A stretch of DNA of 43,411 nt. It comes from Sedimentimonas flavescens (GTDB lineage: Bacteria > Pseudomonadota > Alphaproteobacteria > Rhodobacterales > Rhodobacteraceae). The notes beneath the pieces were generated by a model. It saw nothing but the letters and a program-made list of their open reading frames with translations. It searched no databases and was not told where the DNA came from. Below are positions 6,892 to 43,411 of the stretch, one piece after another (the first letter of the stretch is position 1; each line of letters opens with the position of its first letter). The stretch is from positions 1 through 43,411 of the forward strand of contig NZ_JAHVAI010000018.1 of assembly GCF_019264375.1 (NCBI RefSeq), in the 5' to 3' direction. Position numbers and translations under genes: made by a program.

Positions 6892-7060
6892 TGCGGGATC
6901 CTTGCTGGCGCCGTTTGCATGAGCCGAACTGGCCGATGTCATGGCGCCGGTCGAACCAAAACGGGCGGGTGCCACACCTTTGGTGACGACCAACATGACG
7001 GAAATCGCGTTACCTTGTACTTACCCAGATCAATAGGAGGCTACGATAGCCCTGTAGCGC

Positions 7061-10162: not shown

Positions 10163-10166
10163 GCGC

Positions 10167-11702: not shown

Positions 11703-13985
<2,283 letters not shown>

Positions 13986-25516: not shown

Positions 25517-25525
25517 GCTCCGTCC

Positions 25526-28178: not shown

Positions 28179-28390
28179 CCCGTACCATCATTCGCAGCGT
28201 CGTGCTGCTCGGGCTCGGCCTGACGCTGACAGCCTGTGCGCAGCATAACGCCCCGCAAGCCAACTGCTTCAGTTTTCGCGAGGCTCCTGCGCAGGCAGGA
28301 ACCGCCACCGCCACGATCTCGACCATGGGGGCGGACGTCACGCGCCGCGACACGGCCTGCGATTTCGTCCTCTTGGGGGCGGGCGGCTGA
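28175..28390 (+). CDS. Small lipoprotein, possible VirB7 counterpart
   Basis: A 71-residue protein with a lipoprotein signal and lipobox LTAC (Cys21). The mature part has two further cysteines, in QANCFSF and DTACDFV, that could pair with each other or with VirB9. VirB7 is also a small lipoprotein, but it normally lies near virB6 or virB8. Equating the two rests on size, lipobox and operon membership only. The start overlaps the virB4 stop (ATGA), and four bases separate its stop from the next ATG. Confidence 0.75.
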   Translation: MTRTIIRSVVLLGLGLTLTACAQHNAPQANCFSFREAPAQAGTATATISTMGADVTRRDTACDFVLLGAGG

Positions 28391-28394
28391 GCCA

Positions 28395-29561: not shown

Positions 29562-30355
29562 ACCTGCGCCTGCCCCGTTCCCTTTTCGCCGGTAGCATTG
29601 CTCTCGCGCTCACCCTCAATGTCACCGGACCTGTCGCGGCACAGGGTGTGCCCACGGTGGACACTCAGAACATTGCTCAGGAAATCCGCCAGCTTCAACA
29701 GATGCTGCAGGATTTCGGGATCCAGACCGATCTTCTGGACAATGCGTTGGAGCAACTGGACATGCTGCAAAGCCAGCTCGATCAGCTGAACGAGATGTAT
29801 GCCTCGCTCACCGGGCCGCGCAGCATCCTCGGGCTCGCCATGGGCGGGGACCTCGACACCTTGCTTGAGGCCAACTTCGAAGACATCCCCGGCCTGATCC
29901 GAGGCATCCAGGCGGGCGATTGGAGCGCTCTCATCGGGCCCAATGCCGGGCCCATGCGCACGCAGATGGAACAGGCGCTGGCAAGCGCCGGGTTCGACGA
30001 GGATTCACTCCGCGAGATCGCCACCAGCGGCAATCCGGGCGCCGAAGGCGTGGCCACGCGGGCAACCACAGGTGCTGTGATGTCGGCGGCGGCGCAGAAC
30101 AGCCACGCAGAGGCGGAACAGTCTCTCGAGCGGGTGGAACGTCTGGTCGAGATGATCCCGGACATGGAAGATCTCAAAGCCTCGATGGATCATAACACAC
30201 GCGTCACGGCGGAACTTGCCATCGCCATGACCCGGATGTGGGAGCTGGAAGCGATCCAAACCCTAGGCGCAGGCAATGGAGGCGTGGTTGACGCCGCCAC
30301 CGTTGCCGAAGAACGCCGCTACATGGACTTCACCTTGCCGGATCTTGAGCCGTGA
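29558..30355 (+). CDS. virB5: VirB5-like minor pilin
   Basis: A 265-residue exported protein with a signal peptide ending PVAAQ (about 29). Residues 30-90 form an alpha-helical core with regular leucine and glutamine heptads (IRQLQQMLQDFGIQTDLL). The long helices near the end finish with AEERRYMDFTLPDLEP. This fits VirB5/TrbJ, the pilus-tip protein. The start is TTG (29558), overlapping the TGA of the gene before, with GGAGG well placed. The stop overlaps the virB8 start (GTGA). Confidence 0.85.
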   Translation: MNLRLPRSLFAGSIALALTLNVTGPVAAQGVPTVDTQNIAQEIRQLQQMLQDFGIQTDLLDNALEQLDMLQSQLDQLNEMYASLTGPRSILGLAMGGDLDTLLEANFEDIPGLIRGIQAGDWSALIGPNAGPMRTQMEQALASAGFDEDSLREIATSGNPGAEGVATRATTGAVMSAAAQNSHAEAEQSLERVERLVEMIPDMEDLKASMDHNTRVTAELAIAMTRMWELEAIQTLGAGNGGVVDAATVAEERRYMDFTLPDLEP

Positions 30356-31017
30356 GTGGGGCAGGGGTGATGACTGCGCGCGAGCTCGTGGAAGAGGAAC
30401 TTGTCTACGGTGCCCTGCGCCGGGAACAGCTTTGGCGGATGATCGGCATTTCCGGGGCAGGTTTTGGCGTATTCGGCTGTTTGGCGGCTGCGGCTGTCGC
30501 GCTGATGGTCGAGACGCCGCCTCCCGTGGTTGTGCCCTACGATCCCGCGACCGGGATGGCGCTCCCCAATGCCACGGTTGAAACCGTGTCGCTGGCCGAA
30601 CGGCCTGCCGTGATCGAAGCGCAAATCTACCGCTATATTCTCGACCGCGAGACCTACAACCAGCTTGACAACGATCTTCGTGTCCGCCGTGTCCTCGTAC
30701 AGTCTTCCGGATCAGCCGAGGCCAACATGCGCGCGATGTGGACATCGGGGCAGGACAGCTATCCGCCGACGCGTTACGGGGCTGCGGCCGAGATGGCCGT
30801 TGAGATCGCATCGATCACCCTTATTGGCGATAACCGCGCCCAGGTGCGGCTCAGAAAGCGCCTGACAAGCCCGCAAGGGGTACAGGATGGATCGTTCACT
30901 GCCACGTTGATGTTCGAATTCCGGCCCGAGCGGACCCGCGCGATCGACGATGTCTGGCAAAACCCTTTCGGCTTCACTGTTACCCAATATGCCATCCGAT
31001 CGGACCGTTCCGAATGA
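30352..31017 (+). CDS. virB8: VirB8-like assembly protein
   Basis: The 221-residue bitopic protein has a short cytoplasmic part, one membrane helix (about 30-52) and a periplasmic NTF2-like domain with IEAQIYRYILDRETYN and the closing VWQNPFGFTVTQYAIRSD. VirB8 links the inner-membrane complex and nucleates assembly. The start is GTG at 30352 in a GTGA overlap. The ATG six codons later is an alternative. Confidence 0.9.
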   Translation: MSGAGVMTARELVEEELVYGALRREQLWRMIGISGAGFGVFGCLAAAAVALMVETPPPVVVPYDPATGMALPNATVETVSLAERPAVIEAQIYRYILDRETYNQLDNDLRVRRVLVQSSGSAEANMRAMWTSGQDSYPPTRYGAAAEMAVEIASITLIGDNRAQVRLRKRLTSPQGVQDGSFTATLMFEFRPERTRAIDDVWQNPFGFTVTQYAIRSDRSE

Positions 31018-31715
31018 CTCGCACTCTAATCTCTACGCTGTTGGCCGCCAGCATTCTCGCGTTCGCGGGAACAACTGCCTTGGCCGAGACCACCCCCCGC
31101 CCAGGCTCGCACGACAATCGCGTGCGCGTGGCGACCTGGACTGAGGGCCAGGTTTACCGTGTCGTCACGACTCTGACCCGCGTCACCACGGTCGAATTCG
31201 GTGAGGGTGAAACCATCCGCTCGATCATCGCCGGCGATACGGTCGGGTTTCAATTCGACGGTGTCCCGGGTGGCCGTGCCTTCGCCATCAAGCCAACAGC
31301 ATCTGGCGTCGCCACCAACATCACCGTCTACACCAACCGCCACTCCTACTACTTCCATGTCGTCGAAGCCCGGGAGACGCCGCATTACGTCGTGCAGTTC
31401 CGCTATCCTGAAAACCGCGTGCAACCCACCAGGGCGGTTGCAGCCGATGCGCCGAACGCGAACTATGCGGTCAGCGCCCGAGAAGAGTTCACGCCGACGG
31501 CCATCTGGGATGATGGTACCTTCACGTATTTCCGGTTTGCACGGAACGCGCCGGTGCCCGCCATCTTCCGATTTTCGAACGGCAGGGAACGCGCGGTGAA
31601 CAGCCACACCTCAAGTGACGGCGTCATCCGCGTGTCTGGCGTCAACCGACAATGGGTCCTTCGCCTTGGAGAAGATGTGGTTTGCGTCCAGGACGCAGGA
31701 CAGGCCACATCATGA
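31014..31715 (+). CDS. virB9: VirB9-like outer-membrane-complex protein
   Basis: A 233-residue exported protein with a signal peptide ending ALAET (about 24). The VirB9 N-terminal pattern includes TVEFGEGETIRSIIAGDTVGFQF and NITVYTNRHSYYFHV. The C-terminal domain has PTAIWDDGTFTYFRFARNAPVPAIF. VirB9 joins VirB7 and VirB10 in the core complex across the outer membrane. It overlaps both neighbours by 4 bases (ATGA). Confidence 0.93.
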   Translation: MTRTLISTLLAASILAFAGTTALAETTPRPGSHDNRVRVATWTEGQVYRVVTTLTRVTTVEFGEGETIRSIIAGDTVGFQFDGVPGGRAFAIKPTASGVATNITVYTNRHSYYFHVVEARETPHYVVQFRYPENRVQPTRAVAADAPNANYAVSAREEFTPTAIWDDGTFTYFRFARNAPVPAIFRFSNGRERAVNSHTSSDGVIRVSGVNRQWVLRLGEDVVCVQDAGQATS

Positions 31716-33037
31716 CCGAAGGTACGGAAGACCTCGCCGCGCGCCTCGCGGCTCTCGAAGGTTCGACAGGCAAAGCGAAGGCCAACAAGCGGCCTGCACC
31801 GCTTGCCGCGATCCTTGGAGTCGTCGGCATCGCCGCAGCAGGTGGTCTGGCGTGGGCTGCCCTGCAGCCGTCGGCAGAAGCACCAATGGCGACCGCCGCG
31901 CCGGAAGAGTTTCAGAGCAACGGCCCCGGATTCGGAGATCTGGCGCCGATTTCTGCCCCGGAGCCCAGCCAAGCCCCGCCTGCGGACACAGGTCCGAGCG
32001 AGTCGGAACTCGCGCTGATGGAAAGTCTTGCGACATTGAGAGCGGAACTCGAGGAACTACGCGCAAGACCGGCCGAGGCCGCGGACAGCGGGGCGGAGCA
32101 GGCGATTGCGGACCTGACGGCGCAAATTGCCACCTTACAGGAAGCATCCGCCGAGGCTCAGCGTGCCCTCGAGCGGCAGCTGACAGAGCGGGATCGCGAA
32201 TTGGATCAGCTCCGAATGGACTTGGAACTTGCAAGGCTTGCGCCACCAGAGCCGACCTCATTGGGACCAAGTGAAGAAGAATTGCGGCTGGCCGAACTCG
32301 AAAGGCGGCGCGCAGCCGAAGCCGAGGCCCGCGCAGAGCGTATCGCGTCTCCTATGATCGCCTTCTCCGGGATGGGCGCAGGTGCGGATAGGGAGAATAC
32401 GCTGGAAGCCGCACGTTTGAATGCAGATGAAGCCTTTGTTCGTTCGGGCGCGCAACCTGCACAGGTGACACGTGCCGAAGTGATCGCGAACCCATCGAAC
32501 ACGGTTGTTCAGGGCACCATGATTCAGGCTGTGACTGAGACGGCCCTCGACAGCACACTGCCCGGCGCGATCCGCGCCATCGTTTCGGAAGACGTCCATT
32601 CTTTCGATGGAACGCGTATCCTGATCCCGCGCGGCGCGCGCCTGATCGGGCGCTACCGCTCCGATGTCGCACTCGCCCAATCGCGCGTCATGGTGGCCTG
32701 GGACCGGATCATCCTTCCCGATAATCAGACCGTTCAGATTAGCGCCTTCGGTGGAGACGAACTCGGCCGTACTGGCACCACCGGGTTTGTCGACACCCGT
32801 TTCGCGCAACGCTTCGGCTCCGCCGCGCTAATCTCCTTGATCGGTGCCCTGCCTGCGGCTGCAGCGGGTCAAATCGACAGCGAGGCGGCGGCCGATGTTG
32901 CGAGTGATGTCGGCACCGATCTGCGCGATAGTACGCAAAGCGTGATGCAGGACTATCTGGCGATCCGGCCGGTGATACATGTCGATCAGGGTACACGGAT
33001 CACGGTCATGGTTGATCGTGACCTCGAGATTTTCTGA
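31712..33037 (+). CDS. virB10: VirB10-like core-complex protein
   Basis: This 441-residue protein spans the envelope. A single inner-membrane helix lies at about 31-52. A Pro/Ala/Glu-rich region and a predicted coiled coil follow (about 95-220, rich in Glu, Ala and Arg). The TrbI/VirB10 beta-barrel domain (about 255-440) includes VQGTMIQAVTETALDSTLPGAIRAIV and the closing DQGTRITVMVDRDLEIF. The coiled coil is longer than in many VirB10 proteins. The start was set to ATG 31712 to match the ATGA overlap with virB9. Confidence 0.94.
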   Translation: MTEGTEDLAARLAALEGSTGKAKANKRPAPLAAILGVVGIAAAGGLAWAALQPSAEAPMATAAPEEFQSNGPGFGDLAPISAPEPSQAPPADTGPSESELALMESLATLRAELEELRARPAEAADSGAEQAIADLTAQIATLQEASAEAQRALERQLTERDRELDQLRMDLELARLAPPEPTSLGPSEEELRLAELERRRAAEAEARAERIASPMIAFSGMGAGADRENTLEAARLNADEAFVRSGAQPAQVTRAEVIANPSNTVVQGTMIQAVTETALDSTLPGAIRAIVSEDVHSFDGTRILIPRGARLIGRYRSDVALAQSRVMVAWDRIILPDNQTVQISAFGGDELGRTGTTGFVDTRFAQRFGSAALISLIGALPAAAAGQIDSEAAADVASDVGTDLRDSTQSVMQDYLAIRPVIHVDQGTRITVMVDRDLEIF

Positions 33038-33038
33038 C

Positions 33039-34073
33039 ATGGCTGCAAGTTATCTGGAGGCGTCGCTCGACCGTTTCGGCCCCGAAGTCCTGCGCGACGA
33101 CACGATCGAGATCTGCATCAATCCCGACGGACAAGTCTGGGGCGAATTCCAGGGCGATCACTTCATGCGAGGTCTCGGCAGCCCGCTGAGCCAGACCGAG
33201 ATCAAGGACCTCGGCAACCAAATCGCCTCGGCCGCCTCGACCACGCTCAGCACCAAGAAGCCCATCGTCTCTGTCTCGATCCTGTATCGAGATCGCCCGA
33301 TCCGTGCGCAGGTGATCCAGCCGCCGGCAGTCGAGGGCGGTTTCTCGATTTCTCTTAGGTTCTTTTCCTCCCTGCCGCTTGAGAAGATCAAACTCGGATT
33401 CCTTTTCGGCAAGGAACGCAGCCTTGAGGATCTGCGCCGGGAACGGAACGCCGCGCTGCGCAATGTGGTTGCCTCCGGCGACATCGACGCCGCGCTGCGC
33501 TTCTGCGTCGAGAACAAGCTCAATATGATCGTCTCGGGCGGCACATCGACCGGCAAGACGGTCGCGGCGCGCAAGATCCTTTCGCTGATCCCGCCCGAAG
33601 AGCGGATCATCACCATCGAGGAGGCGGCCGAGCTGCGCCCCGAGCAGCCCAATGCCGTGACGTTGATCGCGGACCGGGACACGGATGCCCGCAGTGCCGA
33701 TGTGCTCTTGGCCTCAACGCTTCGCATGCGACCTGACCGGATCGTCCTAGGCGAAGTCCGCGGGCGCGAGGCGATGACATTTCTCGAGGCAATCAACACC
33801 GGCCACGGTGGATCGCTGACTACGCTCCATGCCGAGACCCCACAACTTGCTGTTCGCCGCCTCGCCATCGCCGCCCTGAAAACCGATGTGCCGATGACCT
33901 ATGCCGACATGATCGATTACATTGAGGGCTCGATCGACGTGATCATTCAGGCAGGCCGCCATGAAGGCGCGCGCGGAATCACCGAGTTCTTCCTGCCGGG
34001 TCAAACCACAGATTTGAACCTCGACACGGTCGACGGCAGAGGTAACAAGAGCCCCTCCGTTGCCGTTGAGTAA
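33039..34073 (+). CDS. virB11: VirB11-like hexameric ATPase
   Basis: The 344-residue traffic ATPase has an N-terminal domain and a RecA-like domain. Walker A is GGTSTGKT (about 167-174). ITIEEAAELRP and the His box TGHGGSLTTLHAETP are also present. It switches the system between pilus building and substrate transfer together with VirB4. The start at 33039 lies one base after the virB10 stop. An open frame further upstream is inside virB10. Confidence 0.94.
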   Translation: MAASYLEASLDRFGPEVLRDDTIEICINPDGQVWGEFQGDHFMRGLGSPLSQTEIKDLGNQIASAASTTLSTKKPIVSVSILYRDRPIRAQVIQPPAVEGGFSISLRFFSSLPLEKIKLGFLFGKERSLEDLRRERNAALRNVVASGDIDAALRFCVENKLNMIVSGGTSTGKTVAARKILSLIPPEERIITIEEAAELRPEQPNAVTLIADRDTDARSADVLLASTLRMRPDRIVLGEVRGREAMTFLEAINTGHGGSLTTLHAETPQLAVRRLAIAALKTDVPMTYADMIDYIEGSIDVIIQAGRHEGARGITEFFLPGQTTDLNLDTVDGRGNKSPSVAVE

Positions 34074-34088
34074 GAAAGGAACCCCCAG

Positions 34089-34508
34089 ATGCGAAAACCA
34101 ATTCTTGCACTCATGCTTGCCGCCTTGGCGGGTCCCCTTATGGCGCAGACTTCGCCTCAGGTCTCAAACGATCTCACAGTCGATATGTCGCCTCAACAGT
34201 ACCGGATCTGCAACGAGCGTCCGGCGCGACCGACTTGGATGGACGAAATCAATCCGCGTGAAGCTTACAAGGCAGCAGCTTTGATGGAGTTGTACGAAAT
34301 TCGGGCCTGGGAAGAGATTGCTGAATCTGGCGACTGCGGCTGTGAAACCCGCTTTCCCGCTTGGGATAGCTCCGATGGCGAATATCATGAAAGGTATGCA
34401 GGCCTTAGCCAAGCCGAGCATTCGGCGTTTCGCCGCGACTGGATTGAAGTAAAGAAGCAACTCGAGCCGAGAGTGCGTACAATCTGCGAAGCTCAAGGCA
34501 ACTGGTAA
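34089..34508 (+). CDS. Unknown secreted protein between virB11 and virB6
   Basis: A 139-residue protein with a signal peptide (MRKPILALMLAALAGPLMAQ). The mature domain contains four cysteines (in RICNERP, GDCGCET and TICEAQGNW), suggesting two disulfides. It is otherwise helical and rich in acidic and aromatic residues. I know no family for it. It lies where some systems carry a small exclusion or stabilising protein next to virB6, but this is only position. AAAGGAACCCCCAG precedes the ATG. Its TAA shares a base with the virB6 ATG (TAATG). Confidence 0.75.
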   Translation: MRKPILALMLAALAGPLMAQTSPQVSNDLTVDMSPQQYRICNERPARPTWMDEINPREAYKAAALMELYEIRAWEEIAESGDCGCETRFPAWDSSDGEYHERYAGLSQAEHSAFRRDWIEVKKQLEPRVRTICEAQGNW

Positions 34509-35545
34509 TGGGCGTTGTCAGCTGGATGGTCGAAACGGCAGACGCGTTCCTTGTCGATGCGGCTGAGTCCCAGTTCGGGGCCGTGGCAAGCAATACCGGC
34601 ACGATCGTCCTGCTGATGGTCACGCTTTCGCTGATCGGCGTCTGCATCAACATGGCATTCCAGTTCCGCAGCATGGATGGGGCCAGCTTCTTCTGGTACC
34701 TGATCAAGCTGACCCTTATCGGTCTGTTCGCCTTCAACTGGGCAAACTTCAATGCAGTAGCAAACGCAGTCATTGGAGGCTTGGACTACGTCGCTGGCGC
34801 ACTGGTGTCTTCGGTTGGCGGCGGAGGAGCCGGAGCCACACACTTTGCCGGCGAATTCGACATCCTGATCGAAAAATTCAGCCGGTACCTGAATGCCATC
34901 GGCAGCAACCTGAACTGGATGACGGGCGCGATCCTAGGCGGCATCGGGCTTGTTCTTTTGAGCCTCCTTGGCTTTATGACCGGCATCGTCCTCATCTTCG
35001 CCAAGATGATGCTGACCCTCATGCTCGGCCTCGCTCCGATCATGATCGCACTGTCGCTCTTCGACGCGACCAAGGATTTCTTCCATAGGTGGGTCTCGAC
35101 GACAGTCAGCTATGCCTTCTACCCCATCGTAATCGCAGCAATGTTCTCGACGGTCGTCGGCATGGCGAATTCGCTGCTCGCCCAGCTCGGCGATCCGAAC
35201 TCGGCAACCAACATCGGATCGCTAGTGCCATTCTTCGTGATGGTCTTCCTGGCGAAAGGTTTCGTCGCGGCGACACCTCTGATCGTGAGGGGGATTTCGG
35301 GCAACCTGATGGTGGCGGCCGCGCCCGCCATTGTCGCTGGATCGGCTGGGGTCGTGCGTGGGATCTTCAACACGGCCGGCGTCAAAGGCAGGTCGCGGAT
35401 TGGTGCGCTGACCAGCGGGGAGGTGATTGGGAGAGGCCTTGTGCAGGCGCCTGCGTCCGCGCAGAGCTCCGTGGCGATGGCAAGTGTGCAAGTTGTTAGG
35501 ATGGCGGAGAGGGCGAAGCGGTTGGGACAGGGTAGAGCGCATTGA
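34508..35545 (+). CDS. virB6: VirB6/TrbL-like membrane protein
   Basis: A 345-residue inner-membrane protein with six or more hydrophobic helices (about 29-52, 62-78, 142-168, 170-190, 205-228 and 238-262). FAKMMLTLMLGLAPIMIALSLFDATKDFFHRWV is the typical VirB6/TrbL central line. The last 80 residues are polar and basic. VirB6 forms part of the inner-membrane channel. It is the last gene of the operon. Normal neighbours such as VirD4, a relaxase or TraG are not found after it. Confidence 0.92.
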   Translation: MGVVSWMVETADAFLVDAAESQFGAVASNTGTIVLLMVTLSLIGVCINMAFQFRSMDGASFFWYLIKLTLIGLFAFNWANFNAVANAVIGGLDYVAGALVSSVGGGGAGATHFAGEFDILIEKFSRYLNAIGSNLNWMTGAILGGIGLVLLSLLGFMTGIVLIFAKMMLTLMLGLAPIMIALSLFDATKDFFHRWVSTTVSYAFYPIVIAAMFSTVVGMANSLLAQLGDPNSATNIGSLVPFFVMVFLAKGFVAATPLIVRGISGNLMVAAAPAIVAGSAGVVRGIFNTAGVKGRSRIGALTSGEVIGRGLVQAPASAQSSVAMASVQVVRMAERAKRLGQGRAH

Positions 35546-35820: not shown

Positions 35821-36234
35821 TCAGTCGACTGGAGTCTGCTGGTGAGACGTGCGGAGCCAGCCACCCACATCGTTCAGATAGGTGGAGGCGCAAAGTGCTT
35901 CATAGATGGGCAGATCGGGTTTCTCAGCAGAGGCACGGTAGCTGAGAATGACAATGTCGCCACATTGCATTGCTCTGCGCTCAGCCATCGCCACGGACCG
36001 CCAGCCGGTCCTGCGCGTCAGGCCATGCCAGATCTGATCGCCCTGCAGGATACCCGAAGGATACGGAAAGATCATGACTGCGTTTTTCGCAGTTGTCGTG
36101 CGCGCGTTGTCGGCGCCATTGGTCCAGAAGCGCTCTTCCATAGCCCAGAGACTTTCCTGATCCGCTGGAGAGGGCCTGCCGATCTTATTTGCAGCATGTT
36201 CGACAGTGGTCTTTTGCGGCACGGAGAGGGTCAT
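35821..36234 (-). CDS. NTF2/SnoaL-like protein, copy 2 of a duplicated two-gene cassette
   Basis: A 137-residue protein. After about 20 residues of its own it follows the copy at 6064 closely (AMEERFWTNGADNARTTTAKN, FPYPSGILQGD, EALCASTYLNDVGGWLRTSHQQTP). The domain is the small NTF2/DUF4440-type fold. It starts at ATG 36234, overlapping the stop of the tail-anchored gene (ATGA), so in this copy the two are tightly coupled. The extra N-terminal residues are not shared. No active-site residues can be assigned. Confidence 0.8.
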   Translation of the reverse strand: MTLSVPQKTTVEHAANKIGRPSPADQESLWAMEERFWTNGADNARTTTAKNAVMIFPYPSGILQGDQIWHGLTRRTGWRSVAMAERRAMQCGDIVILSYRASAEKPDLPIYEALCASTYLNDVGGWLRTSHQQTPVD

Positions 36235-36650
36235 TCGGCTGTCTCCCATGTGCCGGAAAAGAGGATCTGGATCAGGATCAGGATCACGAGCGTCACCGAC
36301 AGGACGGCTCCGGGCGAGAAGGCGACGCCCTTATGCAACGCATCGCTAAAACTCGTAGCGGCCGGTGCGGCACCCGGAAGGAGAGCGGCAAGGCTGCGGG
36401 CCACCTCTCCATTCTCCGTCGCAAGTGCAGGCACGTCAATGCTACGTGACAGCAGCTTTCCCAGACGCGAGACGGCCGCTCGACGCCCCGAAGACGCAAG
36501 CTCGGCGGCCACGTCCCAAGGATCGAGGTCCAGCCGGGCAAGCGCAGAGAGCACGGTCACGCTGGAGCCATTTCGATCTTCGCCGACAGAGGCGTAGAGA
36601 AACCGCTCCAATGCGGGGTCATGGGAATTGAGGATACCGGCTACGGGCAT
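36231..36650 (-). CDS. Tail-anchored membrane protein, copy 2 of a duplicated two-gene cassette
   Basis: The 139-residue protein shares FLYASVGEDRNGSSVTVLS, ARLDLDPWDVAAEL and the overall layout with the copy at 6475. It ends in one hydrophobic helix (GAVLSVTLVILILIQILF) and a short polar tail. A strong GGAGGAAGC site precedes ATG 36650, which aligns with the start of the first copy. The middle region (RRAAVSRLGKLLSRSIDVP) looks helical. It may act as a membrane anchor for the NTF2-like partner, since the two always occur together here. Confidence 0.8.
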   Translation of the reverse strand: MPVAGILNSHDPALERFLYASVGEDRNGSSVTVLSALARLDLDPWDVAAELASSGRRAAVSRLGKLLSRSIDVPALATENGEVARSLAALLPGAAPAATSFSDALHKGVAFSPGAVLSVTLVILILIQILFSGTWETAE

Positions 36651-36993
36651 TTTTGCTTCCTCCAGAAATGGGGCTCGGGATCTCGGCAGGTTTAGACACA
36701 GAACGATCTGGGTCGCCAACTCCGGCCGAGAAGACCTCGGTTGGCGTCGATCCTGCCCAAATTCCGCCCTGCACGGGCTGATGCAGATCAGTCTGGCGCC
36801 AAGCTGACGCTGCCAATGCCAGACCCGCTCGGGTCTTGCCCGTCAGCTCACCATTGCGAGCCATGCTAACATGGGTCAGGGCGTGTCGTCCGATCGTCAG
36901 GTAAAAGTACTGATACCAGCACGCTGTGCCTCTTCCCCGAAATCATGGGGTGGACGTGGTGCTGCCCCCCCGCAGACAGCACGGAGATCAGGT
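36651..36993. other. Divergent intergenic region
   Basis: About 340 bases between the minus-strand cassette and the plus-strand HflKC cluster. It should carry both promoters. I see no convincing gene, tRNA or transposon end. A run of seven C at 36966-36972 lies near the start of the next gene. Confidence 0.45.
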
Positions 36994-37302
36994 ATGGCCA
37001 TGCGCTCGACCAAGTCGACTGTGACGTTCGAACACCCGTTTCTCTTGTCCGGTTACACGGATGAATTGCCCGCCGGCGACTACGACGTGGTCGTCGAGGA
37101 AGAGCTTCTGGAAGGTCTCAGCTTCGCGGCCTACCGGCGAACGGCCACGTATCTGACCGTTCGCGGAAAGGGACGCATGGCGGGGCTAGTCGAACGACGA
37201 CCGACCAGCGAGCTCGATCTGGAAACGGCACTTGAATTGGACAGAAGGTCCGTGAAGCCAAATAGCGAGACGGCGCTTTCCCCGTCGGAGGACTTGGAAT
37301 GA
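36994..37302 (+). CDS. Small protein with an LPAGxYD motif, unknown function
   Basis: A 102-residue soluble protein whose first part reads TVTFEHPFLLSGYTDELPAGDYDVVVEEELLEGLSFAAYRRTATYLTV. This resembles a short beta-rich unit and is shared in pattern with the protein at 39764 (FxxPFxxxGxxxxLPAGxYDxxxE). The C-terminal part is a polar tail. GGAGATCAGGT precedes the ATG at 36994, and MRST two codons later is also possible. It opens the plus-strand cluster and overlaps the next gene by 4 bases (ATGA). Confidence 0.72.
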   Translation: MAMRSTKSTVTFEHPFLLSGYTDELPAGDYDVVVEEELLEGLSFAAYRRTATYLTVRGKGRMAGLVERRPTSELDLETALELDRRSVKPNSETALSPSEDLE

Positions 37303-37643
37303 ACACTCCCGAATGGCTCAAACCCGGAATCTACGGCGCCGCAATCGGCGCGGTCATTTTTGGCGTTGTCGGATTTACCTGGGGCGGCTGGGTGACCGGT
37401 GGAACCTCGAGCGACAGGGCCATGACCATGGCCCATAACGATGTTGTCGCGGCCATGGTGCCCGTATGCTTGGAAATGGCCCGGACCGATCCGGAGCGGG
37501 CTGCAAAGCTGGAAGCGATCCGGGCTGCCTCCACCTATCAGAAGCGCGACGCGCTTATGAAGGCCGGATGGGCCACCGTACCAGGCGCAGACGCTCCGAA
37601 CCGCGACATCGCGCAAGCCTGTCTCGCAGAGCTCGAACTGTAA
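37299..37643 (+). CDS. Membrane-anchored protein with a conserved periplasmic helix pair, unknown function
   Basis: The 114-residue protein has an N-terminal membrane segment (YGAAIGAVIFGVVGFTWGGWVTGG, about 12-35). An outer helical part follows, with MAHNDVVAAMVPVCLEMARTDPERAAKLEAIRAA and DIAQACLAELEL, carrying two cysteines. Proteins of this form are widespread in alphaproteobacteria as hypothetical proteins. I know no role. The start overlaps the gene before. Confidence 0.72.
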   Translation: MNTPEWLKPGIYGAAIGAVIFGVVGFTWGGWVTGGTSSDRAMTMAHNDVVAAMVPVCLEMARTDPERAAKLEAIRAASTYQKRDALMKAGWATVPGADAPNRDIAQACLAELEL

Positions 37644-37652
37644 GGGGTCCAA

Positions 37653-37964
37653 ATGGAACAGCCCTCAAATGTCAGCAACGAAAAGACCCCGCCCGCAACG
37701 GAAGAGATTTCCGCGCGCTGCGCTGAGACTACAGAGCTTGAAGGTCGTGTGATCGCTCTCGAAAGGGGTCTTCGACCCACAGGACAGATCGAGTTTGCGG
37801 TCCAGGCAGCGGAGAACGAAGGCATGCCGACACGACCGGTGGCTGTTCCCGTGGCGCGACGCAGGCGCCCGGCGGCAAACCGCAACATCCCGGCCGGTGC
37901 ACCCGAAATCAGGCGCGCAAGCGCACCACCCCCGACCGCGAAGCCCCCCACTGCGAAGGATTGA
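37653..37964 (+). CDS. Small disordered protein with a QAAENEGMPxRP motif
   Basis: A 103-residue protein without membrane segments. The first half is helical and acidic. The middle has FAVQAAENEGMPTRP, and the last third is a basic, Pro/Ala-rich tail likely to be disordered (ARRRRPAANRN, APPPTAKPPTAKD). The QAAENEGMPxRP phrase recurs at the C-terminus of the protein at 39764. AAGGGG precedes the ATG. The gene lies 9 bases after the membrane protein gene and 4 bases before the repeat protein. Confidence 0.65.
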   Translation: MEQPSNVSNEKTPPATEEISARCAETTELEGRVIALERGLRPTGQIEFAVQAAENEGMPTRPVAVPVARRRRPAANRNIPAGAPEIRRASAPPPTAKPPTAKD

Positions 37965-37968
37965 GCAA

Positions 37969-38772
37969 ATGAAACACGATGCGCATTCACATGGCAGGAC
38001 CCTCGGGCGCCTTTTTGCGAAACTGACTGCGGTGGCCGGCATGATCGCCTCTCTCGCGTTTCCAGTCTTTGCGCAGGACGGGACTGGACCGATCCCGCAG
38101 AACGCGCAGGCCCGCAGCTATGGCGGAGGGTGGAACTGTGTCCTGGGGTATCGGGTGGATGGCGCTGAGTGCCTTGCGATTGAACTGCCGGAGAATGCCT
38201 ATGCGACGGGTCGTTCCTACGGAACGGGGTGGGAATGTCGCCGCGGATACGAAGAGGTGGGTGAGGCATCTTGCGCCCCCATCCTTGTGCCCGCCAACGC
38301 CTTCCTGCAATCTTCCGGTTACGACTGGCAGTGCGAACGCGGATATCGGCAGGACCGCGAAACCTGCGTTCCAATCATCCTGCCGGAACACGCATTTCTC
38401 ACGGAAGATCCCGGAGGCACGGGCTGGACCTGTGATCGCGGCTTCGTCGCGGGCGAGGATGCATGCGTGCCAGTTGCGGTGCCGGAGAACGGCTATCTGA
38501 CTAACGCCGAGTACGGCGATACTTGGCGGTGCGATAGAGGATTTTTCGAGGTGGACGATCGCTGCGATGTCGTCGTGCTACCGGCCAATGCCTTCTTGGA
38601 TACAGATACCTACGGGCCTGGATGGCGTTGCGAACGTGGATATGAGAGCAAGGATCGGAACTGCGTCGCGATCGAGTTGCCGCAAAACGCTCATCTCGAC
38701 CGATCCGGCAACCGCTGGACCTGTGACCGAGGCTTTCACTTGTCCGATGGGGGGTGTGCTCTTGGACGATGA
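37969..38772 (+). CDS. Secreted protein of seven cysteine-pair repeats
   Basis: A 267-residue protein. A signal peptide with a long charged N-region (about 1-36, ending FPVFAQ) precedes seven tandem repeats of 31-34 residues. Each repeat has the pattern YGxxWxCxRGYxxxxxxCxxIxLPxNAxL. Each would hold one disulfide (C-x8/9-C). The seventh is cut short after the second cysteine. The start at 37969 gives the only signal peptide. The pattern is not one I can match to a named domain. It might be an adhesive or binding rod on the outer side of the inner membrane. Confidence 0.8.
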   Translation: MKHDAHSHGRTLGRLFAKLTAVAGMIASLAFPVFAQDGTGPIPQNAQARSYGGGWNCVLGYRVDGAECLAIELPENAYATGRSYGTGWECRRGYEEVGEASCAPILVPANAFLQSSGYDWQCERGYRQDRETCVPIILPEHAFLTEDPGGTGWTCDRGFVAGEDACVPVAVPENGYLTNAEYGDTWRCDRGFFEVDDRCDVVVLPANAFLDTDTYGPGWRCERGYESKDRNCVAIELPQNAHLDRSGNRWTCDRGFHLSDGGCALGR

Positions 38773-38806
38773 TCCGCACACTTCGGGGGGTCCTCGTGCG
38801 TCCGGC

Positions 38807-39613
38807 ATGAGCGTCAGCTTAGGATGCCGCCTGCGCTACGCGTTGACCCAACCGACGCCCTTGATCGCAATGCTGAATGTACACTATTCGCGCTTCGGTG
38901 ATCTGGAGCGCGCCGACTATCTCGTCACCTCTCCCAGCGTCCCGCTCGAAAGCTACCGTGACGGTTTCGGAAACTGGTGCACGCGCATGGTGGCACCAGC
39001 GGGCGATTTCACCTTGTCCTCCGATGGCATTTTCCGGGATGGCGGGTTGCTCGACCCCGCTGCTCCGGATGCGGCCCAGCACGCGGTCCAGGATCTGCCG
39101 TTCGAGACGCTCGTCTATCTGCTCGGCAGCCGATATTGCGACACGGATCTTCTGTCCGACGAAGCCTGGCGGCTGTTTGAGAACACAAGGCCCGGATGGG
39201 CCAGGGTCCAGACGATCTGCGATTTCGTCCACGAGACTGTGGCTTTCGACTATATGCAGGCGAATGCGACCCGCACAGCCTCTCAGACGCTTGCCGGCCG
39301 GGCCGGTGTGTGCCGTGATTTTGCGCATCTCGCCATCGCCTTCTGCCGATGCATGAACATTCCGGCCCGCTATTGCACGGGCTATCTGAGCGATATTGGC
39401 GAGCCCGAGCCCTATCCGCCCGGAGATTTCGCGGCCTGGATGGAAGTCTTTCTCGAGGGTCGCTGGTGGGTCTTCGATCCGCGCAACAACACACGGCGCA
39501 CCGCAAGGATCCTGATCGCGCGCGGCCGGGATGCCGCGGATGTGCCTTTGACGCAGACCTTCGGGCCAAGCACGCTGTTGGAATTCCGGGTCTGGACCGA
39601 TCAATTGACCTGA
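38807..39613 (+). CDS. Transglutaminase-like family protein, probably missing the catalytic histidine
   Basis: A 268-residue protein of the bacterial transglutaminase-like (COG1305) type. The N-terminal beta domain starts VSLGCRLRYALTQPTPLIAMLNVHYSR. The catalytic domain has AGVCRDFAHLAIAFCRCMNIPARYCTGYL with the expected Cys, and AAWMEVFLEGRWWVFDPRNNTRR where HAWxEV...DPRN is usual. The residue before AW is Ala, so the His of the Cys-His-Asp triad is not in its normal place. No strong ribosome-binding site is visible. The ATG at 38807 is chosen because the family begins there. Confidence 0.87.
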   Translation: MSVSLGCRLRYALTQPTPLIAMLNVHYSRFGDLERADYLVTSPSVPLESYRDGFGNWCTRMVAPAGDFTLSSDGIFRDGGLLDPAAPDAAQHAVQDLPFETLVYLLGSRYCDTDLLSDEAWRLFENTRPGWARVQTICDFVHETVAFDYMQANATRTASQTLAGRAGVCRDFAHLAIAFCRCMNIPARYCTGYLSDIGEPEPYPPGDFAAWMEVFLEGRWWVFDPRNNTRRTARILIARGRDAADVPLTQTFGPSTLLEFRVWTDQLT

Positions 39614-39763
39614 TCGGGCCTCAATCCAAGTGGTCGGCCATCAGGCGATCACGGCTCTGATCCTCTCTGAGGCAAGGCTCTGGATTTGAAGGTCTTCCAA
39701 CGCAGGGGAGGCCGCTGGCGGAACATGAGATCACCGAATTGACCGTAAACAAGGAGGACGCAG

Positions 39764-40255
39764 ATGGAACACCCCAAACTAAAGAGCGTTGCGGTGTTTT
39801 CGAGACCGTTCACTGTCCCGGGTTTTGACGAAATGCTGCCGGCCGGAACCTACGACATCGAAACCGAGCTGAGTGCGCCGCCCGATGACCGAAACCCCGA
39901 TGCCTGGAAGGCCTCGGTCCTGATAAATCTGCATCCGCGAACTTCACATCCAGGACTGTCACGAACCTTGACGGTTTCTCTGGTTGACCTCGATGCGGCG
40001 CGCGCAAAAGATGAACTCACCGGGAAAGAACTCACGGAGCTCTTCCTCGAAGAGATGCTGGCAGACCCGATGGTGCGGCTGGTTATGCAGGCCGATGGCG
40101 TCTCTGAAATGCAGCTTCGGCAACTCTACTCAGGTAGACGTTCGTCTGAGGCCGCCCCTGATGCCACGACACCCGTCCGTGAAGTCAGAACGCCGCAGGA
40201 CAAATGTTCGATTCAGGCTGCGGAGAATGAGGGAATGCCACCGCGGCCAAATTGA
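39764..40255 (+). CDS. Unknown protein sharing motifs with two neighbours
   Basis: A 163-residue soluble protein. Its N-terminal unit FSRPFTVPGFDEMLPAGTYDIETEL matches the pattern in the protein at 36994. The middle is helical (GKELTELFLEEMLADPMVRLVMQADGVSEMQLRQLY). The last residues (IQAAENEGMPPRPN) repeat the motif of the protein at 37653. It thus carries both cluster motifs in one chain. A perfect AAGGAGGAC site lies before the ATG. A short leader of about 150 bases separates it from the transglutaminase gene, and 80 bases separate it from hflK. Confidence 0.72.
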   Translation: MEHPKLKSVAVFSRPFTVPGFDEMLPAGTYDIETELSAPPDDRNPDAWKASVLINLHPRTSHPGLSRTLTVSLVDLDAARAKDELTGKELTELFLEEMLADPMVRLVMQADGVSEMQLRQLYSGRRSSEAAPDATTPVREVRTPQDKCSIQAAENEGMPPRPN

Positions 40256-40335
40256 GCCGTGCCGAAGTACATACGCAGACCCTTCGGCTCTCGGCCTCAT
40301 CAGAGATGGCCGCAACCCAAAAAGAGGAAAACACC

Positions 40336-41406
40336 ATGACTGATCATGAGGATGACGGCCCGGAAGATCGAGGGCCTTGGAACACCAGACAGAAGCGCGC
40401 TCCACCAGAGATCGATGCCATTCTCCGCCAGGGTCGCGAACGCTTGGGTGGCCTGTTGCCAAGTGGGCTGCCGCCCGCCAAGAGCATCGCGGTGCTAGGG
40501 GCTGTTACTTTCTTCGCAGTTGTCGCCTGGTCGTCCTACTACACGGTTCCGAGTGACTCCGTCGCAGTCGTCCAGCGATTTGGAAAATACACTGATGAGG
40601 TTCCGCCGGGGCTTCACTTCAAATTTCCGCTTGGAATCGATGTGGCAACGCTGGTTCCCGTGAAGCGTCAGCTTAAACAGGAATTCGGCTTCACAACGCC
40701 GGGCGCGAGTGATCCGTTTCAAAGTCCAGTCGATGGCCGTCGCGAAACCGAGATGGTAACCGGCGATCTGAACGCCGCTCTCGTGGAGTGGGTGGTGCAA
40801 TACCGGATATCAGAGCCTCTGAAATTCCTCTTCGAGGTGCGTCAGCCGGGCGCGACGCTTCGATATGTTTCCGAATCCGTGATGCGTGAGGTGGTCGGCG
40901 ACCGCACGGTCGACGAGGTCATCACCATAGGCCGACAGGAGATCGAAAGCGAAGCGCTTCTGAAGATGCAGGCGCTGACGACCAAATATGCGATGGGGAT
41001 CAGCATCGATCAGGTGCAGCTCAAGAACATCAACCCGCCCGAACCGGTTCAGGCCTCATTCAATGAGGTCAATCAGGCGCAGCAGGAGAAGGAGCGCCTG
41101 ATCAACGAAGCGCGTCGCGAATACAACAGAGTCATTCCGCTGGCCGAGGGCGAGAAAGACCAGCGCATCCGCGAGGCCGATGGCTATCGCCTGAAACGCA
41201 TCAACGAGGCTGAAGGTGATGCCGCACGGTTCACCGCGCTTCTGGCCGAATATGTGAAGGCGCCCGAAGTCACGAGACGGCGCATCTATATCGAGACCCT
41301 GCAGGACGTGCTGCCAGGGATCGGGTCGAAGATCATCGTCGATGGCTCGACCGCGAGCATTCTCCCGCTTCTGACGCTCGATCGGGCCCGGGAGGATCAG
41401 CCATGA
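40336..41406 (+). CDS. hflK: HflK, SPFH-domain membrane protein
   Basis: A 356-residue bitopic protein: an acidic N-terminal part, one membrane helix (about 53-72), the SPFH/band-7 domain (VPSDSVAVVQRFGKYTDEVPPGLHFKFPLG...), and a coiled coil (about 250-320, with NEVNQAQQEKERLINEARREYN). HflK with HflC forms a large dome around FtsH that controls membrane-protein turnover. The start is ATG 40336, after an AGAGG site. It overlaps hflC by 4 bases. Whether this is a second copy next to a housekeeping hflKC elsewhere cannot be seen from this window. Confidence 0.93.
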   Translation: MTDHEDDGPEDRGPWNTRQKRAPPEIDAILRQGRERLGGLLPSGLPPAKSIAVLGAVTFFAVVAWSSYYTVPSDSVAVVQRFGKYTDEVPPGLHFKFPLGIDVATLVPVKRQLKQEFGFTTPGASDPFQSPVDGRRETEMVTGDLNAALVEWVVQYRISEPLKFLFEVRQPGATLRYVSESVMREVVGDRTVDEVITIGRQEIESEALLKMQALTTKYAMGISIDQVQLKNINPPEPVQASFNEVNQAQQEKERLINEARREYNRVIPLAEGEKDQRIREADGYRLKRINEAEGDAARFTALLAEYVKAPEVTRRRIYIETLQDVLPGIGSKIIVDGSTASILPLLTLDRAREDQP

Positions 41407-42422
41407 AACTGAAATCTGGCATTCTTGCAGGTCTCGCCGTTGCGGTTGTCGTGACCGCCCCGGGCGCCTTCTACACGGTTGGCGAGGTCGAACAGGCGAT
41501 CATTACGCAATTCGGCAAACCCGTTGGAGAACCGATCACGACAGCCGGCCTCAAGCTGAAACTCCCCTTTATTCAGGAGGTCAATCGGATCGATCGCCGG
41601 GTTCTCGAGTGGGACGGCAACCCTTCGGACATGCCAACCAAGGATAAGCTCTATATTTCCGTGGACTTGTTCGCCCGTTGGAAAATTACAGATCCGTTGC
41701 AGTATTTCCTGCGCCTGCGCGACGAGCGCAGCGCGCAATCGCGGCTCGACGACATTCTCGGCAGCGAGACCCGCAATGCCGTCGCCAAGCACGAGCTGAT
41801 CGAGATCATTCGAACAACGAAAGGCAGGGTGCCGCTGCGGGACACGCTCCTGACGGATGAAGAGCGCGCGCAGGACATCGGTGCGCTGGTCCCCATACAA
41901 AAGGGCCGGGCAATGGTGGAGCAGGAGATCTTCGCGGCTGCCGCAGAGAAGGTTCGTGTCTTCGGGATAGAACTCCTCGACATCCGCTTCAAGCGGATCA
42001 ACTACAACGAAAGCGTGCGTCCGAAGATCTATGATCGCATGATCTCGGAGCGACGACAGATCGCCGAGCGTTTCCTGTCCGAAGGCAATGGCGAAGCCGC
42101 GCGTATCCGCGGCAACCGCGTGCGCGACCTGAACAAGATCCAATCCGAAGCCTACCGGGAGGTGGAAGAAATCCGGGGCCTGGCAGATGCCTCGGCGGCG
42201 GACATCTATGCAAGAGCCTACAACATCACTCCCGAGGCCGCTGAATTCTACGCGTTCACGCGAACCATGCAGGCCTACAAGGATATGATCGCGGGCGGAA
42301 CGACACTTGTTCTCACGACCGACAGCGATCTCTTCGGATACCTGAGGGCAATGGAAGGAGAAACGCCAGGCGCAGGGGCTGACCCTGCCCGTGCAGGGGC
42401 CGAAGCGTTGGTCGAACGATGA
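41403..42422 (+). CDS. hflC: HflC, SPFH-domain membrane protein
   Basis: A 339-residue partner of HflK with an N-terminal membrane helix (about 8-25), then the SPFH domain starting FYTVGEVEQAIITQFGKPVGEPITTAGLKLKLPFIQEVNRID. A coiled coil with RFLSEGNGEAARIRGNRVRDLNKIQSEA follows. The C-terminal PEAAEFYAFTRTMQAYKDMIAGGTTLVLTTDSDLFGYL is a standard HflC ending. There is a polar Gly/Ala tail of about 25 residues. The ATGA overlap shows tight coupling to hflK. Confidence 0.94.
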   Translation: MKLKSGILAGLAVAVVVTAPGAFYTVGEVEQAIITQFGKPVGEPITTAGLKLKLPFIQEVNRIDRRVLEWDGNPSDMPTKDKLYISVDLFARWKITDPLQYFLRLRDERSAQSRLDDILGSETRNAVAKHELIEIIRTTKGRVPLRDTLLTDEERAQDIGALVPIQKGRAMVEQEIFAAAAEKVRVFGIELLDIRFKRINYNESVRPKIYDRMISERRQIAERFLSEGNGEAARIRGNRVRDLNKIQSEAYREVEEIRGLADASAADIYARAYNITPEAAEFYAFTRTMQAYKDMIAGGTTLVLTTDSDLFGYLRAMEGETPGAGADPARAGAEALVER

Positions 42423-42441
42423 TACCAGGGAGACAATAGCG

Positions 42442-42753
42442 ATGACCGACGATCCGGTTGACCTCGATACAAGGCGAAGCGCCGAAGGCCGGATCGCGGC
42501 CGACATCCGGCGACACTCCCTGAAGGATTTCGAAGCCGATCAAAGAGCGCTCCGCTTGCGGCAGGAGGAACTCGAAGTACAGCTCCTCGCCCAACCCGCC
42601 GCCAACTGGCATGAGGCAGCGCTCAAAGCGCAGTATCTGATACGGCGCTACTCGGAAACCGCCGAAGCCAGTGACGCCCGGCGACAGGAACTCATCGAGC
42701 GCACGCTTGGTGATCTGGCACGGCTGATTGAAGAGGGTGGCGCAGATCGATGA
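42442..42753 (+). CDS. Small helical protein downstream of hflC
   Basis: A 103-residue, mostly alpha-helical, charged protein without membrane segments (RIAADIRRHSLKDFEADQRALRLRQEELEVQLLAQPAANWHEAALKAQYLIRRYSE). It may form a coiled coil. AGGGAGAC precedes ATG 42442, and the stop overlaps the next start (ATGA). Proteins of this appearance often follow hflC in stress-related clusters. I cannot give a function. Confidence 0.75.
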   Translation: MTDDPVDLDTRRSAEGRIAADIRRHSLKDFEADQRALRLRQEELEVQLLAQPAANWHEAALKAQYLIRRYSETAEASDARRQELIERTLGDLARLIEEGGADR

Positions 42754-42941
42754 CCGAACTCGTGGATCAGGACAATGGGCCTGTGCGGGCCATCGACGAT
42801 GTCCCGAAAGAGCGTCTTTGTCTCCGTTGCCGCACGCCCTTTCCGAGTGAAGGCTTCGGGGAACGGATTTGTCGGCGGTGCAAAGCGTCGCACTCATGGC
42901 AAACGGCGGTGCAACCTGTCCGCTCGTCAGGGCGCCGGTGA
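42750..42941 (+). CDS. Small zinc-ribbon-like protein, 63 aa
   Basis: The short protein has two CxxC knuckles, CLRC (24-27) and CRRC (41-44), separated by 13 residues with FPSEGFGERI between. This is the usual form of a zinc ribbon that would bind one Zn2+. The tail is basic. Coupling to the helical protein gene by an ATGA overlap indicates a joint operon with hflKC. It might bind nucleic acid or a protein partner. Confidence 0.72.
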   Translation: MTELVDQDNGPVRAIDDVPKERLCLRCRTPFPSEGFGERICRRCKASHSWQTAVQPVRSSGRR

Positions 42942-43028
42942 CAGCTGTATTGCAGCGCCCTGGCCCAAATCCAAAATCCTGGGCACTCCAAAAGGCTGCA
43001 GTCTCTGAGCGTCGTCATGGGTTGCGTA

Positions 43029-43334
43029 TCATGTCCTCGTCTCGAGCCGTGTCAGTTGAAGCAGTATCAGTGTGCCGATTGTCGCAGCGAAGGCCGATCC
43101 TGACAGGATTCCTAGTTTGGCAGCGTTAAGCATCGTCGCATCGAAGGCCAGATCCGCGATGAAGACCGACATCGTGAACCCAATGCCCGCCAGAAACGAG
43201 CCGGCCACGATGAAGGGCCAGGACAGGCCCGGCGCAAGCACCGCAATACCGGAACGAACTGCAAGCCAGCTGAAACCGAGTACGCCGATCGGCTTTCCCA
43301 ATACCAATCCGGCAATGACCGCCAGAGTGACTGT
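43029..43334 (-). pseudogene. nhaA: C-terminal remnant of an NhaA Na+/H+ antiporter, cut by an IS
   Basis: On the minus strand the frame reads TVTLAVIAGLVLGKPIGVLG, then SWLAVRSGIAVLAPGLSWPFIVAGSFLAGIGFTMSVFIADLAFD. That is the last three membrane helices of NhaA. Codons match the family up to ACA at 43332-43334. Directly beyond lies the terminus of an IS3-type element, and the same frame meets a TGA about 50 bases further on. Only about 100 of roughly 390 residues remain. The essential aspartates of the N-terminal half are gone, so it cannot work as an antiporter. Confidence 0.85.
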
Positions 43335-43335
43335 T

Positions 43336-43411
43336 TGAATAGCCCCGCGTTTTCTAGACGCCTTCGGGTCTCAGTTTCCGCTGCCGTTCGAACTCGACGG
43401 GCGACAGCATC
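43336..43411 (-). mobile_element. Right end of an IS3-family element with the transposase C-terminus
   Basis: On the minus strand the frame entering from the window edge reads MLSPVEFERQRKLRPEGV and stops at TAG (43354-43356). The SPVEFER phrase near the C-terminus is typical of IS3-family OrfB transposases. After 17 more bases the element ends with GGGGCTATTCA at 43336, giving the TG...CA ends of the family. The main part lies beyond the window. It has interrupted the nhaA gene. Confidence 0.8.

Follow-up and report, generated by a model that had tools for sequence, protein, structure and literature searches.

The stretch of DNA analysed here (the window) is the whole of contig C10 (NZ_JAHVAI010000018.1; 43,411 bases) of Sedimentimonas flavescens, order Rhodobacterales, whose 3.38-Mb genome is assembled in 62 contigs. 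Near its right end, at 36994-42941, ten open reading frames (ORFs), P1 to P10, follow one another on the + strand, each with a start, a stop and zero internal stops, at spacings of -4, 9, 4, 34, 150, 80, -4, 19 and -4 bp. An initial annotation had described ten co-directional genes with short gaps, centred on HflK and HflC (HflKC), and all ten were found present, intact and in place. Our comparisons favour another centre for them: the cluster is probably one arm of a horizontally mobile, FixK-type-regulated adaptation (stress) island of alphaproteobacteria in which HflKC is optional, and not an HflKC system. Below, L numbers denote fetched loci, and C3, C9, C10 and C14 are contigs of the window genome.

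The first gene, P1 (36994-37302, +), encodes an LPAGxYD protein of 102 amino acids (aa) and is followed by its partner P2 (37299-37643, +), a membrane-anchored protein of 114 aa. P3 (37653-37964, +) is a disordered protein bearing the motif FAVQAAENEGMPTRP, P4 (37969-38772, +) a secreted Cys-repeat protein, and P5 (38807-39613, +) a protein of transglutaminase fold with Ala at the catalytic His position. P6 (39764-40255, +) is a second LPAGxYD protein, with a helical domain and the C-terminal motif SIQAAENEGMPPRP. HflK2 (40336-41406, +) and HflC2 (41403-42422, +), so named here as the HflK and HflC of a mobile lineage, precede the helical protein P9 (42442-42753, +) and the zinc-ribbon protein P10 (42750-42941, +), whose best Pfam match is under the cut-off. 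No match at the Pfam cut-off was obtained for P1, P2, P3, P4, P6, P9 and P10. The identity given earlier to HflK and HflC was confirmed, as both exceed the curated cut-offs (HflK, 264 bits vs 159 for TIGR01933; HflC, 230 bits vs 134 for TIGR01932).

The run of ten + strand genes holds as the initial annotation drew it, but the conserved unit is larger, with D4440 and D146 on the left and a regulator past the right contig end. D146 (36231-36650, -), a protein of 139 aa with a hydrophobic C-terminal end, is divergent from P1, and beyond it lies the conserved left-arm gene D4440 (35821-36249, -), a small protein with weak resemblance to DUF4440; a homologue of it, other than the window's copy, matched PF14534 below cut-off (E 0.02). 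Two palindromes lie between D146 and P1. The first, CTGATGCAGATCAG (36778-36791), is a candidate regulator site that fits the pattern derived from the regulator gene and also the wide one, CTRAY-N4-RTYAG, of the promoters, and the second, CTAACATGGGTCAG (36866-36879), a candidate site that ends 114 bp upstream of the P1 start, fits the wide pattern. On the right, the gene for the Na+/H+ antiporter NhaA (43029-43411, -), a frequent neighbour of cargo type, is truncated by the contig end and colinear with nhaA of the Paracoccus zhejiangensis plasmid pPZ02.

Plasmids from several genera, and large contigs too, carry near-identical, rearranged or partial versions of the cluster, so the gene set is more than a chance run; pPZ02 matches 36800-43400 at 97% identity across 99% of that interval. 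Over 131 sources, a recurrent but not universal order begins with cargo, sD78 and a Crp/Fnr regulator (these two mutually divergent), ZnR63, D4440 and D146. It then continues divergently with P1, P2, an optional hflKC, a coiled-coil protein of 159 aa, a motif-bearing leader with P4, and P5, P6, P9, P10 and a second transglutaminase. Contig C14 of the window genome continues as pPZ02 does, with nhaA, a desaturase, sD78, the regulator, ZnR63, an SLC13 transporter, the second transglutaminase and a glucan synthase-like protein, and from this colinearity we infer that C10 and C14 adjoin. The variable cargo comprises hflKC, groESL, nhaA, a fatty acid desaturase, the SLC13 transporter, glucan synthase with transglutaminase, and PsiE. 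An alternative cassette holds a DUF1611 protein (23 loci) and a pyridoxal phosphate-dependent racemase (22 loci; e.g., L115 and L116), and several such loci are without hflKC. Island copies were found on plasmids typed as conjugative; contigs as long as 4.37 Mb preserve the order, and a related one occurs in both Stappiaceae and Rhodobacterales. Contig C9 (L163), at 2441-9485, has a further regulator with 73% identity to the pPZ02 copy, together with sD78, ZnR63 and palindromes nearby, and has no P1 match; it is possibly a second island in the same genome.

Gene content was counted in three locus sets: the first 43 HflK2-centred loci (L020-L062), 40 hand-picked P1/P6-centred loci, and 37 further HflK2 loci (L063-L099), which are mostly metagenome-assembled genomes (MAGs) of other groups and include a Rhodovulum with most of the gene set (L064). 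These counts vary with fragment length, several contigs being only 3-7 kb. In the first set, P1 occurred in 37 loci and P2 in 38; the regulator was present in 36, D146 and P5 in 28 each, P6 in 20, NhaA in 17 and P4 in 13. D4440 occurred in 21/43 HflK2-centred and 21/40 P1/P6-centred loci, and D146 in 27/40 of the latter. Across the HflK2, P1/P6 and further HflK2 sets, in that order, P4 was found in 13/43, 28/40 and 8/37 loci, P9 in 8/43, 4/40 and 3/37, and P10 in 16/43, 21/40 and 5/37. For the 76 P1 genes of the first HflK2-centred and the P1/P6-centred sets, P2 lay on the same strand within 700 bp in 63 and D146 was divergent within 1.5 kb in 46.

To place HflKC within this gene set, P1/P6, HflK2 and the peptide motif described below were counted in a single set of 196 genomes from the same order as the window. 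The P1/P6 profile matched 45 of them and HflK2 (E 1e-90) only 8. In all 8 HflK2 genomes, HflK2 lay 557-1522 bp from P1/P6 (start to start), while 37 of the 45 P1/P6-positive genomes were without HflK2, which argues against HflKC as the centre. Across the class, P1/P6-type proteins were found in 27/289 genomes. P1, P2 or P6 lay on the same strand within 3 kb of 44 of 49 HflK2 genes in two fetched sets that overlap by at least two genomes. The loci without such a close neighbour are L022, L028, L044, L045 and L055; sequence beyond 8 kb is available for L045 alone, and in its 15 kb, HflK2 is present and P1, P2 and P6 are absent. In the 37 further HflK2 loci, P1 was found in 7, P2 in 4 and the regulator in 1. 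These hflKC2 loci often had a DUF1488 gene (13/37); a P4-type gene with Cys repeats was present in 8 and a cold-shock gene in 6. Within the order, HflK2 thus stands practically always beside P1/P6, while P1/P6 usually stands without HflK2. The term HflKC-centred could not be upheld, given P1/P6 in 45/196 vs HflK2 in 8/196 genomes and an hflKC2 mostly without P1/P2 in the further loci. What was kept of the initial annotation is that several genes form a conserved set, with signs of shared regulation and plausibly a role in stress. The observation that it named as refuting, relatives with hflKC but none of the other genes and no common regulation, was not made within the order: P1/P6 adjoins HflK2 in 8/8 genomes and the promoter palindrome is conserved.

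The window genome has a second hflKC on contig C3, 33% identical to the window pair, which we took as the ordinary chromosomal pair. When an alignment of seven HflK sequences was run by tblastn (E 1e-3) against 84,980 species genomes, at least 443 relatives were obtained, of which the best 80 were kept. These best 80 showed 71-98% identity, and their hosts were Rhodobacterales, Stappiaceae, Cohaesibacter, Filomicrobium, Rhizobium, many gammaproteobacterial MAGs and one MAG labelled Verrucomicrobia. A Photobacterium plasmid (L014) bears an hflKC of the same lineage (~74% protein identity) without P1-P10. Vibrio plasmids (H41, H42, H44, H45, H47 and H48) carry similar hflKC DNA at 66-69% identity. 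The window HflK was at most 38.5% identical to 31 ordinary HflKs (the 30 best-scoring ones from a 60-genome phylum sample, and that of C3). In two quick trees with 27 of the 88 HflK2 rows, the lineage formed one side of a branch with a support of 100 (Shimodaira-Hasegawa-like approximate likelihood-ratio test); the second tree omits L001, a more distant SPFH protein, for its long branch. By these sequence comparisons, the window HflK belongs to a separate, laterally spread lineage.

By sequence, the nearest solved structure to the window HflK is E. coli HflK (7vhp), and in exceeding the curated cut-offs the window pair resembles the HflK-HflC modulator of FtsH (SPFH3 family), which forms a cage with FtsH. 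It differs from ordinary HflKC in that HflK2/HflC2 form a separate lineage, are plasmid-borne in several records, come in addition to the host's other pair and have no FtsH motif found nearby: a motif search of the 131 sources gave no ORF of more than 300 aa with the HE(A/S)GH(A/T) zinc motif. The role of HflKC with FtsH is established (PMC6629908, PMC13086221, PMC10434171), and HflKC of E. coli is reported to contribute to tolerance of oxidative and aminoglycoside stress (PMC10434171). From their family membership, HflK2 and HflC2 may likewise act in membrane protein quality control. In surveys of SPFH proteins, HflK/HflC appear as a single subfamily or a single conserved operon (PMC2636767, PMC13086221), and a separate mobile HflKC lineage was not met in the available portions of these two surveys, which is no proof of its being unreported.

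The regulator beyond the contig end, which has annotated relatives on plasmids of Ruegeria conchae and Leisingera caerulea, was characterised in part from its homologues. That of L020 contains a Crp-type helix-turn-helix (PF13545, E 3e-16) and a cyclic nucleotide-binding domain (PF00027, E 2e-12), and the copy on C14 (2739-3470), 95% identical to the pPZ02 regulator, is preceded by a CTGAT-N4-AGCAG site whose end lies 48 bp from the start. FNR and FixK sites consist of 5-bp half-sites with a 4-bp spacer, as the island palindrome does. The closest PDB sequence was FixK2 (4i2o, E 1.7e-16), but the regulator stays below the NCBIfam cut-offs for FixK, Fnr and FnrL alike, scoring 59.9 bits against the 300 of the FixK model NF050806. 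The half-sites CTGAT, CTAAC and CTGCT of the island palindromes also set it apart from FixK2 and FNR. In the majority consensus of 78 family sequences, the N-terminal Cys cluster of the [4Fe-4S] oxygen sensor FNR was not found; the consensus has only two Cys columns, both away from the N-terminus. The Cys at consensus position 178 was considered as a counterpart of Cys183 of FixK2, which is described as redox-sensitive (PMC12937710); it is close but out of register in the HMMER alignment and was not used as evidence.

Upstream of the regulator gene, the palindrome form found first, ACTG-N8-CAGT, was present in 39 of 72 regions. The form CTGMT-N4-AKCAG had 93 places in 1.86 Mb of alphaproteobacterial loci, near-duplicate loci included, compared with 11, 9, 15 and 16 for four control palindromes, and for 68 of the 93 the nearest start was that of the regulator or sD78. 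A matrix of the regulator sites at 8 bits or more matched 9 of 46 distinct D146/P1 intergenic regions (0.2 expected). The wide form CTRAY-N4-RTYAG was found in 41 of these 46 regions, with a dinucleotide-shuffle mean of 0.0 and 0/46 for four control palindromes; the regions without it are those of L030, L040, L043, L119 and L133. Across the whole 3.38-Mb genome, 39 places match the wide form (10 for the reversed pattern), among them 6 on C10, 5 on C9 and 2 on C14. The six on C10 compare with 0.35 expected from the rest of the genome (Poisson P 1.8e-6), a partly independent check, as two of the six helped to suggest the pattern; the same formula applied by hand to the other four gives about 4e-4. 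These four lie at 170 and 13987, before cupin-like frames, at 5945, some 52 bp before the first gene of an arginine deiminase operon, and at 19278, at the start of a MacA/HlyD-like gene. From the sequence, the island regulator would be expected to bind these palindromes, and that one protein reads both site forms is our guess.

The two cupin-like reading frames, at 170-480 and 13987-14420, were named by eye and are similar to each other, the first soon interrupted, and an identical palindrome CTAACGCCGATCAG precedes each. A dyad TGAT-N7-ATCA is conserved upstream of the island groES in 15 of 25 regions (L011, L020, L033, L040 and others), where the regulator matrix gives no match. A short dyad in P1, TCGA-N5-TCGA, was dropped as a regulatory site, being coding sequence.

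Several island proteins also share a peptide, IQxAENEGMPxRP, of the form IQAAENEGMPPRP. The initial annotation had noted that shared motifs connect the otherwise unassigned members, and this stood: LPAGxYD joins P1 and P6, and QAAENEGMPxRP joins P3 and P6. The DNA pattern of the latter (at most one mismatch) occurs exactly twice in the genome, both times in the cluster; the two copies differ in codons, a sign of selection acting on the peptide. AENEG(M/I) gave 54 ORF hits in the first 91 sources, or 53 without a DsrC protein (L085) taken as a chance match. In P6 and in a Roseibium protein of 63-69 aa the motif is C-terminal, in P3 it lies midway along the protein, and in the leader, which many loci have fused to P4, it is close to the N-terminus. 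Within the last 60 aa of the P6 family, 41 of 58 members have AENEGM exactly and 5 more with one mismatch. The motif DNA pattern was found at 40 places in 28 of the 196 order genomes (reversed control, 1); 35 of these lie within 6 kb of a P1/P6 match, 2 on other contigs of P1/P6-positive genomes and 3 in P1/P6-negative genomes. In the class sample it occurred in 3/289 genomes, namely the window's own, G376, where it overlaps a P1-type match, and G466, which is without P1. All 8 HflK2 genomes have the motif, but 20 of the 28 motif genomes are without HflK2, and HflK2 is therefore not the motif's partner in general. An attempt to treat P3 as a family of its own was dropped, since the iterated profile drew 99 ORFs, many of them P1/P6 or P4 ORFs. 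It is conceivable, though we hold it rather doubtful, that unrelated island proteins with IQxAENEGMPxRP bind one common hub, perhaps the P1-type LPAGxYD domain, as an inducible envelope-stress complex into which HflKC2 or GroESL is wired as a plug-in effector.

The individual proteins were further compared by profile and structure. The P1 profile finds P6 of the same genome with E 2e-7, so that their common LPAGxYD reflects homology. The AlphaFold2 model of P1 has four strands and one helix, with a predicted local distance difference test score of 81.5 and no clear PDB relative. That of P6 has an added helical part and a low-confidence tail that holds the motif. A Pfam search with 44 P1/P6-type sequences (set A4) gave one family in one member at E 0.03, which was taken as chance. 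P5 has a transglutaminase core (PF01841, E 5e-20) and aligned over 249 residues with the bacterial transglutaminase-like protein 3isr (E 6e-32); the Cys and Asp motifs are kept in most rows, but the His of the DFHA motif of 3isr is Ala in P5. Of the 53 rows of the P5 family, 49 have a readable motif, which reads DFAAW in 47 and DFCAW in 2. The family thus lacks the Cys-His-Asp triad, and with its catalytic His replaced, P5 is probably not an ordinary transglutaminase or protease.

Elsewhere in the window, an arginine deiminase operon lies at 1164-5892 (-), with genes for a DcuC-type carrier, the deiminase, ornithine carbamoyltransferase and an amino acid kinase family protein. An F-type ATPase operon at 7061-13809 (-) comprises A, B/OSCP-like, two alpha/beta-type and gamma-type subunits and is of the kind known as N-ATPase; the contig is plasmid-like. 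Upstream of the cluster, 24282-35545 (+) contains conjugation-type genes, a transglycosylase and a TrbE/VirB4-type ATPase being recognised by Pfam, and further ORFs there are of a size that fits conjugation genes.

The reading that we favour builds on features read directly in the DNA: a recurrent gene order, a conserved promoter palindrome, a regulator gene with a similar site in front, exchangeable cassettes, a mobile HflKC lineage and no ORF with an FtsH motif nearby. On this footing, we infer a FixK-like regulation and an adaptive function of the island, which apparently moves between marine and salt-loving bacteria and is switched by its own FixK-like regulator. Several results weigh against this. 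The wide palindrome was picked after the promoters had been viewed, and the 46 regions are related by descent; the pattern set beforehand at the regulator gene matches only 3 of these 46 promoters (shuffles 0.0), and the usual site at that gene, CTGAT-N4-AGCAG, mismatches the wide form in one half-site. In this genome, CTGMT-N4-AKCAG is not specific to the island, with 8 of its 24 places on C9, C10 and C14. The regulator matrix at 8 bits matched none of the regions upstream of GroES (0/21), P6 (0/54), HflK2 (0/52) and TG2 (0/31). An island-wide regulon that takes in the arginine deiminase operon was set aside and remains a lead, the palindrome being absent in 3/3 other plasmid-borne deiminase operons. 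As for the shared peptide, 12 of the 58 P6 members are without it even when one mismatch is allowed.

That regulator site and promoter palindrome are alike without being one pattern lends slightly more weight to the view that the genes gathered on related plasmids and are functionally unlinked. Several copies do lie on conjugative or mobilisable plasmids, some close to transposases or type IV secretion system genes. Such hitch-hiking nevertheless seems unlikely to us, given that contigs as large as 4.37 Mb retain the gene order, a related order is found in Stappiaceae and Rhodobacterales, the divergent promoter is conserved and unrelated members have the motif in common. We give little credence to the initial annotation's reading of a dedicated HflKC-centred membrane quality-control system with the small proteins as HflKC/FtsH adaptors and sensors. 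The constant adjacency within the order (8/8) and the 44 of 49 HflK2 genes with P1, P2 or P6 close by agree with it, but P1/P6 without HflK2 in 37 of 45 positive genomes, the scarcity of P1 and P2 (7 and 4) in the 37 further HflK2 loci, the 20 of 28 motif genomes without HflK2 and locus L045 do not.

The peptide might instead belong to a proteolysis system in which AENEGMP is a degron or docking tag read by FtsH and tuned by HflKC2. Its presence on several protein architectures and in all 8 HflK2 genomes would suit a tag, as would the low-confidence model of the P6 tail before the motif, as for a disordered tail. This too has a low probability in our estimate, because the motif also occurs in the 20 genomes without HflK2 and is internal in P3 or near the N-terminus in the P4 leader, so that it is no terminal degron. 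An anti-phage or conflict island would share the mobile setting, and a relative (L012) has Abi-family genes ~8 kb downstream; with PADLOC matches in 0/10 proteins at E 0.01 and ion, lipid and chaperone genes as the recurrent neighbours, we regard this as very improbable.

The nearest kind of system is the transmissible locus of stress tolerance (tLST), which, as described in the available part of a review, is likewise a mobile island with xenologues of core quality-control genes and ion-transport genes (PMC8290217). Two relatives carry, a few kb off, a PsiE gene (L017) and an M48 protease gene (L013), both with tLST counterparts. The present island differs in having other core genes, a FixK-like regulator with its palindrome, HflKC instead of an FtsH xenologue, and alphaproteobacterial hosts. 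The FtsH xenologue, a trait of tLST or the transmissible locus for protein quality control (TLPQC) in some tLST variants only, was found in 0/131 sources by motif, and none of the tLST/TLPQC genes ClpK, small heat-shock proteins, YfdX and HdeD is named in the annotated plasmid loci. HflK, HflC, NhaA and 'alphaproteobacteria' have zero occurrences in the main text of the tLST review (PMC8290217), as far as that text was available. Because gene content, regulator and host range differ, the island is not classed as a tLST. No literature on this island was found among the matches listed for PubMed Central open-licence full texts.

If the favoured reading is right, the FixK-like regulator would be activated by redox, low-oxygen or salt stress, bind the palindromes and lead to expression of both arms and some of the cargo. 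HflK2 and HflC2 might join or replace the host's other HflKC around the host FtsH and so shift inner-membrane proteolysis or microdomain organisation; the host's own FtsH is proposed because none was found nearby. NhaA, desaturase, GroESL and glucan synthase would adjust ions, lipids, folding and periplasmic osmolytes, respectively. P1, P6 and the motif-bearing proteins may form a cytoplasmic assembly in which IQxAENEGMPxRP docks on a common partner other than HflKC2, with P2 and P4 as the envelope side and P5 binding rather than catalysing.

Rhodobacterales and Stappiaceae abound in the sea and are rich in plasmids, most of the cargo of which is unnamed. Our analysis joins about a dozen unnamed families, a candidate regulator with its sites, a mobile HflKC lineage and a shared peptide into one testable unit. 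If the reading is true, the island would be an alphaproteobacterial counterpart of tLST, and HflKC, usually viewed as a fixed housekeeping partner of FtsH, would be traded as an accessory part.

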